DNA of 64,000 nt from Ruania halotolerans (GTDB taxonomy: Bacteria; Actinomycetota; Actinomycetes; Actinomycetales; Beutenbergiaceae). The position numbers were made by a program, and so were the translations under genes. The first letter of the stretch is position 1, and every line of letters starts with the position of its first letter. The notes below the pieces were generated by a model that saw nothing but the letters and a program-made list of their open reading frames with translations, was not told where the DNA came from and ran no database searches. Shown here piece by piece: positions 1-46,070 of the stretch. The stretch spans positions 2,553,380 through 2,617,379 of the forward strand of contig NZ_CP088017.1 in NCBI RefSeq assembly GCF_021049285.1, in the 5' to 3' direction.

Positions 1-3735
<3,735 letters not shown>

Positions 3736-43726: not shown

Positions 43727-44116
43727 TCAGGCAGCCGGGTTCTTCGGGGCGTTCACGTCCTCCGGCAGCGCCTTCTTCGCCGTCTCGACGAGGGCCTTGA
43801 AGGCCACTGCATCGTGTACGGCGAGCTCGGCGAGCAGGCGACGGTCCACCTCGACCTCAGCGGCCTTGAGACCCTGGATGAGGCGGTTGTAGGTCATGCC
43901 CTCGGCCCTGGCAGCGGCGTTGATCCGCTGGATCCAGAGGCGACGGAAGTCGCCCTTCTTCGCCCGCCGGTCCCGGTAGGAGTAGGCGAACGAGTGCGTC
44001 ACCTGCTCCTTGGCCTTGCGGTAGAGCCGGGAGCGCTGCCCGCGGTAACCGCTGGCGCGCTCGAGTACTGTCCTGCGCTTCTTATGGGCGTTGACCGCCC
44101 GCTTGACGCGTGCCAC
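43727..44116 (-). CDS. rplT: 50S ribosomal protein L20
   Basis: L20 binds 23S rRNA early in 50S assembly and in many bacteria represses its own operon. The 129-aa sequence starts [15 protein letters not shown] and contains [37 protein letters not shown] and the conserved C-terminal [12 protein letters not shown]. An extra acidic/proline C-terminus adds about 10 residues. It is 29 bp downstream of rpmI. Confidence 0.98.
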
Positions 44117-44145: not shown

Positions 44146-44340
44146 TTACTTGCCGAGCAGCTTCTTGATCTTCTTCGCGTCGGCCGGGGCGACCTCGACG
44201 TCGTTCACGAGGCGGCGAGCGTTCCGGCTGCTGCGCTCCTGGAACTTGTGCACGTGGCGTGCGCGCTGGCGCATGACCTTCCCGGTCCCGGTGAGCCGGA
44301 AGCGCTTCTTGGCACCGGAGTTCGTCTTGTTCTTCGGCAT
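44146..44340 (-). CDS. rpmI: 50S ribosomal protein L35
   Basis: A 64-aa basic protein, MPKNKTNSGAKKRFRLTGTG, typical of bacterial L35 in length and sequence. It lies between infC and rplT in the universally conserved order, 28 bp after infC. Confidence 0.98.
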   Translation of the reverse strand: MPKNKTNSGAKKRFRLTGTGKVMRQRARHVHKFQERSSRNARRLVNDVEVAPADAKKIKKLLGK

Positions 44341-44368: not shown

Positions 44369-44956
44369 TCAGCCGGCGTCGGCAGTGCCCTGAGCGTCCC
44401 CGGAATCCCGGGAGGCGCGGCGGCGCTGTTCGTTGCGGGTCTCGGACTTCTTCTTGTTCGGGCCGAGCACCATGGTCATGTTGCGCCCATCCTGACGGGG
44501 CACGCTCTCCACATGGCCGAGTTCGGCCACATCGTCGGCCAAACGCTCCAGCAGGCGCATACCCATCTCCGGGCGGGACTGCTCCCGACCACGGAACATG
44601 ATCATCACCTTGACCTTGTCTCCGCCCTTGAGGAACCGCTCGACGTGGCCCTTCTTGGTGCCGTAGTCGTGCGGGTCGATCTTCAGCCGGAACCGGATCT
44701 CCTTGAGGACCGTGTTCGCCTGGTTGCGCCGCGCGTCACGCGCCTTCATGTCGGACTCGTACTTGAACTTTCCGAAGTCCATGAGCTTGCACACGGGTGG
44801 GCGGGCTTCTGGCGCCACCTCGACGAGGTCGAGGTCGGCCTCCTGGGCCAGCCGGAGCGCATCCTCGACCCGAACGATGCCAACCTGCTCACCGTTCGGT
44901 CCGACCAGACGCACCTCGGCAACGCGGATCCGCTCATTGATACGGGGCTCGCTGAT
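44369..44956 (-). CDS. infC: Translation initiation factor IF-3, with AUC start codon
   Basis: IF-3 prevents premature subunit joining and checks the start codon. Reading from ATC at 44956 gives 195 aa beginning [20 protein letters not shown], the canonical IF-3 N-terminus; the nearest standard start (GTG at 44914) would remove the first 14 residues of the N-domain. GAGGAG lies 6 nt upstream of the ATC, which fixes the start. The N-domain (about 1-85), KKGHVERFL linker region and C-domain with [12 protein letters not shown] and [10 protein letters not shown] are intact. A non-AUG start is the classic basis of IF-3 autoregulation, since IF-3 itself rejects such codons. Confidence 0.93.
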
Positions 44957-45001
44957 GTGGTGCTCCTCACCTGAGTTGAAGTCAAATCACCGCCGCCACG
45001 G

Positions 45002-45115
45002 AAAAAGCCTCCGGGCGAGATGCGCGCGGAGGCTCAGGTGGTGCGCCACACAGGGTGCGACGGAGAAGCACGAGTGCTTCTCGACCTGGACCCGGGCTCT
45101 GTCGCACTGGCGAAC
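45002..45115 (-). ncRNA. Structured infC leader with intrinsic terminator (candidate attenuator)
   Basis: The infC 5' leader on the minus strand has three visible elements. A long-range stem GTGCGAC/GTCGCAC (45101-45107 with 45055-45061) encloses a strong hairpin GAGAAGC/GCTTCTC (45063-45082). Next comes an 8-bp intrinsic-terminator stem AGCCTCCG/CGGAGGCT (45027-45034 with 45006-45013) with a 13-nt loop and TTTT at its 3' side. The terminator lies upstream of the gene it would control, about 45 nt before the AUC start. This is the layout of L20- or IF-3-linked transcription attenuation known from Bacillus; here it is inferred. Confidence 0.6.
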
Positions 45116-45323
45116 CAATGCTGTTGAGCAAGGGTGGGAGAGTCTCCACTTGCATATCGGCTTGGTCCGTCCTGCCCAGGCGAACCCGCGCATCACGTTC
45201 CAGACCGATCGGTCAGCCTCAAGGTTAGCACGCAAGTGCCGTCATGCTGGAGTGCGGATCAATGCGACGTGCATCACGAGCAGTGAGCGATTCCGGACTC
45301 CTCCTATGCCGCTGCACGCCCAG
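45116..45323 (-). promoter_or_regulatory. infC promoter region; no gene
   Basis: About 210 bp between the leader structure and the SseB-like gene. A -10-like TAACCT (45222-45227) on the minus strand could start an infC leader RNA of about 260 nt; no good -35 was found. Short open frames here lack ribosome binding sites and family features. Confidence 0.4.
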
Positions 45324-46070
45324 TCAGCCGGTCGGCCGGACCTGGAACTCCAGCGAGTCCACCCGATCAGCCACCTGCTCCTCGGCAGCCAGCAGCTGCC
45401 CTGCGCGCGAGACGATCCCGGAGACGTGCTCCCGGGCCAAGCCGGGTGCAATTCCCAGCACGACGCGTACTTCGGCACGCTCTCCCGGCTCCACACGCAC
45501 TGCGGCAACCCCCTCGAGAGAGCGCATGGCACGTTGCACCGCCTCGGCGACCTCCGGGTCCTGTGCGGCCGGGATCCAGGGACGCTGCTGCGCGAGCGCC
45601 CAGACCGCGGGCCGGGGTAGCAGGATGGCCACGGGACCGCCGGGGTCCAGGACCAGCAGACCGTCAGCGTCGGACGCCGCGGCAAGGGCGGCACGCGGTC
45701 CCTCCACCGGGATCGGCCGAGCATCAGCGCGCCAGCGGGTGAGGGTGGCCATACTGCTGAAGACGGGGATGGCCGCACGCCCGTCCGGAGCCGCGACCGT
45801 CACCATCGCCGCAGACGCCGACTTCTCCCCCGCCACCGGGGCCCGCGTCTGCTCACTCGCCTCGTCCCGCTCCTCGAGCTGGGCCACCACCGGCACCAAG
45901 ACGCGCACCTGCGCCAGCACGGCGACCACGGCGGGCAGGCGCTTTGCCGGATCGCCCATGGCCAAGGCAAGCGCCAGTGCCTCGGGCGCTGCGCCGTCGT
46001 CTCCGGCGAAGGGTGAGGTGGGTGGGAGCGAACGCCCGGCGCCCCCGGATTCAGGTACTGGCTCGATCAC
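45324..46070 (-). CDS. SseB-family protein
   Basis: A 248-aa protein that fits the actinobacterial SseB-like family: an N-terminal disordered Gly/Pro/Ser stretch, then an alpha/beta domain (about 40-160) with [19 protein letters not shown] and [17 protein letters not shown], and a C-terminal ~80-residue domain. E. coli SseB enhances serine sensitivity, but the function in actinobacteria is unknown. The position between hisA/priA and infC is conserved in the order. Its start overlaps the hisA stop by 4 bp. Confidence 0.8.

Follow-up and report, generated by a model that had tools for sequence, protein, structure and literature searches.

We propose that the leader of the infC-rpmI-rplT operon of Ruania halotolerans, as read from its sequence, is a transcription attenuator that senses the ribosomal protein L20, and that it represents a branch of the L20 leaders that has diverged, is as yet unlisted and has an antiterminator of its own. 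We consider this proposal quite probable. The leader, which lies in the 64,000-nucleotide stretch of DNA that we analyzed (the window), is predicted to form one of two structures: (a) a hairpin P1, an arm P3 and an intrinsic terminator, or (b) an antiterminator in which 45155-45140 pairs with 45035-45020. As drawn, P1 and the antiterminator are mutually exclusive. When there is more free L20 than rRNA sites to hold it, L20 would bind a core formed by an AAG motif, P1 and P3, which would mimic the L20 site of 23S rRNA. The bound core would hold P1 closed (as an anti-antiterminator), the terminator would form, and transcription would end. When L20 is scarce, P1 would open during transcription, the antiterminator would form, and the operon would be read. 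Control by IF3 via the ATC start codon of infC would be a second, translational layer. A preliminary description of this DNA had read the leader as holding a conditional terminator for its own operon, analogous to the L20 attenuator of Bacillus, and the comparative evidence supports that reading. The features are:

45222-45230, minus strand: extended -10 promoter element TGCTAACCT, matching the conserved TGNTANNNT upstream of AAG
45140-45155, minus strand: 5' strand of the predicted antiterminator (AUGC, unpaired AA, GUGGAG, A, CUC), which overlaps P1 and pairs with 45020-45035
45150-45151, minus strand: AA dimer of the invariant AAG (88 of 88 leaders, and also in the RF00558 consensus), a putative L20 contact
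45136-45149, minus strand: P1 hairpin, with G45149-C45136, bulged U45148, and GGAG 45147-45144 paired with CUCC 45140-45137; from covariation and the predicted fold
45090-45135, minus strand: P3 arm, with ACCC/GGGU, a UU/CC loop, GCUC/GAGC, a 4x4 loop, a 7-bp stem and a UUCG loop
45063-45082, minus strand: spacer hairpin of 8 bp, from the predicted whole-leader fold
45044-45062, minus strand: local spacer hairpin (45055-45062 with 45044-45051), from the minimum-energy fold; a rival of a long-range stem
45006-45034, minus strand: intrinsic terminator stem-loop, with its U-run at 45006-45002 and the 3' strand of the predicted antiterminator at 45020-45035
44369-44956, minus strand: infC (IF3), with start codon ATC at 44956-44954
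44146-44340, minus strand: rpmI (L35), an open reading frame
43727-44116, minus strand: rplT (L20, the proposed ligand), an open reading frame

We examined the minus strand of the window from 45900 to 43300. A protein search with IF3 gave at least 80 loci among 588 relatives, mostly Micrococcales and their neighbors, and together with the window these provided 81 upstream regions. Homologs of both rpmI and rplT lie 3' of infC in all 64 loci with sufficient downstream DNA. Among the 80 listed relatives from the protein search, infC starts with ATC in 74 and with ATT in 4, and the other 2 alignments begin late. The start codon is also ATC at 77 and ATT at 1 of the 78 infC genes that follow matches to our covariance model R1, ATC at 52 of 52 further loci matched by model R2, and ATC at 18 of 18 loci in another set, whose genomes partly overlap the others and in which only ATC and ATT were sought. 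Because infC starts with ATC, ORF callers that require ATG, GTG or TTG shorten the gene (to 44914 in the ORF list for the window).

The extended -10 element places the start of the leader. TGNTANNNT was found 40-132 nt 5' of AAG in 104 of the 109 loci with sufficient upstream DNA (mean of 2.85 of 109 in shuffled sequences). From its position in the window we infer that transcription starts near 45215 on the minus strand, so the terminator, whose stem ends 49 nt 5' of infC, falls inside the leader, which is probably transcribed as one unit. The preliminary description had taken the region up to 45230, which does contain the complete leader, and it had noted that a start 3' of 45006 would leave the terminator outside; instead, the conserved promoter element precedes the entire leader. 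By eye, a sequence resembling GACCGACC can be seen after the -10 element in many loci (45200-45221 in the window), near the inferred start.

The terminator stem pairs 45027-45034 with 45006-45013 (8 bp, or 9 with G45035-T45005) and is followed by TTTTT at 45006-45002. Its fold has an energy of -20.4 kcal/mol (z = -3.43; 1 of 200 shuffles was as good), which together with the five U bears out the 8-bp stem and T-run that had been described. A T-tailed hairpin precedes infC in 129 of 158 leaders, versus 13 of 40 shuffled ones. A simple promoter and terminator scanner gave no result here; that it missed the terminator is probably due to its loop limit of 3-8.

The minimum-energy fold of the leader (45215-44996) has -106.0 kcal/mol and contains P1, P3, both spacer hairpins and the terminator. 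The hairpin at 45063-45082 had been described as having 7 bp and as part of the switch; it is present, with 8 bp, but we regard it as a spacer. In several close relatives an equivalent hairpin is kept with altered letters (by eye). The description had also enclosed this hairpin in a long-range stem, 45055-45061 with 45101-45107. That complementarity exists, and the stem forms if that piece is folded alone, but forcing it into the whole leader gives -95.0 instead of -106.0 kcal/mol, a cost of 11 kcal/mol, because the P3 arm and the local hairpin at 45044-45062 are broken; in the form drawn, the long-range stem is not supported. In the leader of one relative (L002), a shorter long-range match of 5 pairs can be drawn by eye, and this leader also folds the local spacer hairpin.

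The conserved core lies at 45151-45090 (minus strand) and consists of AAG, one bulged base, the hairpin P1, a C, and the arm P3, which is closed by ACC..GGU. P1 and P3 are both in the predicted fold of the window's leader. Of the working parts in the preliminary description, the terminator stands; the sensing part would be this core, which was not named there. Aligning the regions upstream of infC and looking for covariation, which had been put forward as a check, showed that both the core and the antiterminator covary. In an alignment made without reference to structure (A1; 52 of the 81 upstream regions, excluding near-duplicates and awkward ones, such as L043 with only 69 nt upstream), the leaders share AAG-N-P1-C-ACCY...RGGU, P1 has GC/AU and AU/GC exchanges, and 91.1% of cells pair. 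A class-wide alignment (A2; 88 of 158 leaders) points in the same direction, with 94.9% of cells paired and 6 pairs with changes on both sides, although its sequences were aligned to the structure with R1, which biases these counts towards structure. None of 500 shuffles of A2 reached any of five measures of covariation in the core. AAG, the G after the bulge, CCACC and GGU are each present in all 88 aligned leaders; the closing pairs of P3 are A-U, C-G and C-G in 88 of 88, and the fourth pair covaries.

We also considered a pseudoknot between GACC in the P3 loop and a downstream GGUC, but native pairs were not better than swapped ones (1900 of 2000 permutations were as good, 78 loci). The window also holds a 16S rRNA gene and the 5' part of a 23S rRNA gene (1-3733, minus strand). 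The likeness of the core to the window's own 23S rRNA was judged by eye, and we give it no evidential weight.

In the 81 listed upstream regions, the core block was found by a search pattern in 75 and anchored by hand in 5 (L054, L059, L072, L076 and L081, of which L081 and L054 are doubtful), and 1 region was too short; it lies 146-259 nt 5' of infC. Across 196 genomes of the class, R1 matched 89. Besides the window's own leader there were 91 matching places, of which 89 were fetched: 78 lie before infC and 11, mostly weaker, do not. Model R2, which was built from the 88-leader alignment A2, matched 142 of the 196 genomes, at one place per genome, and by position all 142 places are directly before infC. 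Leaders found with a model resemble each other partly by construction; their linkage to infC does not come about in this way. R2 had no match in the other 54 of the 196 genomes, which may have divergent cores, may lie beyond the strict filters, or may lack the element.

In a draw from the phylum, 21 of 246 genomes matched R2. Outside the class there was one match (L189) among about 221 drawn genomes, and it too lies before an infC that starts with ATC. By eye, L189 has a short leader with the core, a UCCUCUUG complementary to its own CAAGAGGA near the infC start, and no U-run. Within the order of Ruania, the family f9 (L110, L117, L118, L125, L130, L136, L146, L156 and L158) keeps P1 and P3 of the core, and a clear T-tailed hairpin is missing in 7 of its 9 leaders; here the switch may act on translation or use another type of terminator. 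In L110 and L125 we noticed by eye a AUCUCCGCU, about 75 nt 5' of infC, that is complementary to the P1 5' strand AGUGGAGAU, and near versions of it in L117 and L118.

Attenuation might instead be mediated by a ribosome on an upstream reading frame, such as the ORF that starts at 45155 in the window, which has 57 codons and overlaps the core. PMC13236596 describes one attenuator that has an upstream frame, in another actinobacterial operon. But a translated frame seems inconsistent with the lengths of the core, which vary in all three phases: taken modulo 3, P1 lengths fall as 108, 49 and 53 of 210, and the distances from AAG to RGGT as 68, 62 and 74 of 204. Furthermore, a start codon preceded by a Shine-Dalgarno sequence is found near the core in just 28 of 210 leaders (an ATG in 44 of 210), and the invariant bases of the core are structural. 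We consider this explanation very improbable.

Besides its core, the L20 attenuator that we propose has an antiterminator. In the window it would have 13 pairs: ATGC 45155-45152 with 45020-45023, GTGGAG 45149-45144 with 45026-45031, and CTC 45142-45140 with 45033-45035, with the AA left unpaired. We took the 161 of 210 leaders that have a strong T-tailed hairpin 3' of the core and swapped the arms among leaders. The mean energy was -18.58 kcal/mol for native arms versus -15.90 for swapped ones, and 0 of 5000 permutations were as good. The result was the same (0 of 5000) for 63 dissimilar leaders (-18.72 versus -15.50), for 89 class-level leaders (-18.64 versus -17.17), and for 35 dissimilar class-level leaders (-18.90 versus -16.71). 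These permutations ignore relatedness, so they are strong indications and not exact probabilities. A control segment from the same leaders gave no signal (1982 of 2000 permutations were as good). In earlier runs, 17 class-level leaders gave 24 of 5000, and a control with reversed arms came out as borderline, at 246 of 5000.

The base that P1 leaves bulged, and so does not hold, is paired in the antiterminator in 50 of the 75 loci that could be scored (of 107), versus 48.5% expected (0 of 1000); among 43 dissimilar leaders it is paired in 22 of 31, versus 54.6% (2 of 1000). The part of the antiterminator that joins the flank to the terminator loop is conserved and, taken alone, does not covary. 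(L081 was dropped from the reversed-arm and flank run and from the bulged-base run.) Many other segments match in GC-rich leaders: in just 12 of 79 loci does no other upstream segment pair equally well with the terminator arm (L074, which is without a terminator, was skipped), and in the window's own leader 27 other segments reach the proposed pairing.

At full length, the antiterminator fold of the window's leader has -97.6 kcal/mol versus -106.0 for the terminator fold, or 8.4 kcal/mol weaker. Read-through would therefore depend on which parts fold first as the RNA is transcribed, at a time when the terminator still lacks its 3' arm, and the predicted resting state is termination rather than read-through. 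The greater stability of the terminator fold would also suit an unregulated or protective terminator, which lowers expression or ends the transcript from upstream, with the core serving mRNA stability or processing. Intergenic terminators are common, and a same-strand ORF upstream of the leader ends at 45324. However, the conserved promoter element lies between this ORF and the terminator, the antiterminator covaries, and the R2 matches are tied to infC (142 of 142), so we think this improbable.

Returning to the attenuator, we compared it with the L20 leaders of Rfam (RF00558). RF00558 had no match in the window's leader at E values up to 10, no match in 19 genomes (this one and 18 relatives), and none that reached the curated threshold in the 196 class genomes. 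It had 8 weaker matches in 7 of the 196; of these, 5 were inspected, and none had IF3 within its 3.1 kb. A scan with Rfam 15 gave only chance-level matches in the leader and no T-box or riboswitch family; a scan of 20 relatives found no family there and one chance-level match elsewhere. In the literature searched, mostly outside subscription journals, we found no actinobacterial infC leader.

Yet the core of the two RNAs has the same order, AAG-N-P1-C-RCC(Y)...(R)GGY. On the L20_leader of an Anoxybacillus (L190), the RF00558 consensus reads AAG-a-AGAAGC-ACCC-GCUUCU-C-gCCU...CAGGc, and the actinobacterial core is AAG-N-GGAG (or GAAGC)...CUCC (GCUUC)-C-ACCY...RGGU. The g-c pair of the consensus is A-U in the actinobacterial core, and L190 itself has ACCU...AGGU. 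Thus, the earlier view that this RNA is unlike the Bacillus L20 leader holds for the RF00558 score, which is below threshold, but not for the order of the core. With both RNAs already in view, we derived a rule from RF00558 (AAG-N-hairpin-C-NCCY...RGGN'); it picks out 133 of 158 leaders, always at the position of the anchored core (mean of 0.85 of 158 for shuffled leaders). This includes 57 of the 80 listed leaders that were found by protein alone; by eye, those it misses mostly have a P1 stem with three pairs. Conversely, with filters off, the best score of R2 in 17.5 kb was the L190 leader, in register, with 10.6 bits and E = 0.51, which is not significant alone.

The Anoxybacillus leader also has the same operon (infC-rpmI-rplT), the same 5' position, a T-tailed terminator at its 3' end, and an antiterminator that competes with P1. 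The window's leader, as far as its sequence goes, likewise has a terminator that is exclusive with an antiterminator using P1. The two differ in P3, and the actinobacterial leader has long, lineage-specific spacer hairpins. In L190, the one locus examined, the best antiterminator pairs the terminator arm with the loop and 3' strand of P1 (-17.8 kcal/mol), while here the P1 5' strand and its flank would be used. Since either antiterminator would open P1, the two leaders would share their logic despite the different wiring.

In B. subtilis, L20 attenuates the infC-rpmI-rplT operon via a terminator (PMC10931766), and, according to PMC7247131, L20 leaders have in common an AA dimer and two G-C pairs in a row. 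Since the leader has a Bacillus-like core and both of these features can be pointed to in it, L20 is the likely ligand. We also considered that the same attenuator might respond to something else: IF3, L35, another assembly factor, or transcription speed alone. infC is the first gene of the operon, and IF3 regulates its own noncanonical start codon (PMC5472188). As in the statement on Streptomyces in that paper, infC of the window starts with ATC. However, the IF3 autocontrol described there is translational and independent of leader RNA, unlike the attenuator proposed here; it works via the start codon and has no need of a terminator. And in its order and key bases the core is the same as that of the Bacillus L20_leader. 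We therefore consider another ligand unlikely.

If L20 is the ligand, a broader view, which in our judgment stands at an even balance, is that one L20-sensing core occurs in both Bacillota and Actinomycetota, either through common descent or because the same rRNA site was imitated more than once, and that the output module was swapped: the P1 strand that is used would differ by phylum, and family f9, some of whose members carry a P1 complement close to the start codon, has the core mostly without the terminator. On this view the L20 leader would be a sensor module comparable to the aptamer of a riboswitch, far wider than the Rfam record, and it would show how one protein-sensing RNA connects to different output structures. 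Ribosomal leaders are typically not widespread across phyla, according to PMC7247131. With a Bacillus-type core in most sampled genomes of the class (142 of 196), the leader would show operon-level control of IF3, L35 and L20 in a major phylum. The model involves three short RNA segments with predicted and separable mutants, which makes it directly testable.

Two other L20-sensing RNAs can be compared with the actinobacterial leader. In the deltaproteobacterial L20 r-leader (Eckert and Weinberg 2020, PMC7247131), which we liken to ours by its description there, the scaffold and the lineage are different, but the two G-C pairs and the AA dimer can be pointed to in our leader as well. An L20 operator of the E. 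coli type was not found here: the element is 5' of infC, and the single pseudoknot tested (GACC/GGUC) had no support. As described in PMC10931766, the E. coli operator is translational, lies before rpmI, and combines a pseudoknot with a hairpin, whereas the actinobacterial element lies 5' of infC and has a terminator. Like the leader in our proposal, the E. coli operator lets L20 control its own synthesis by imitating the L20 site of 23S rRNA.
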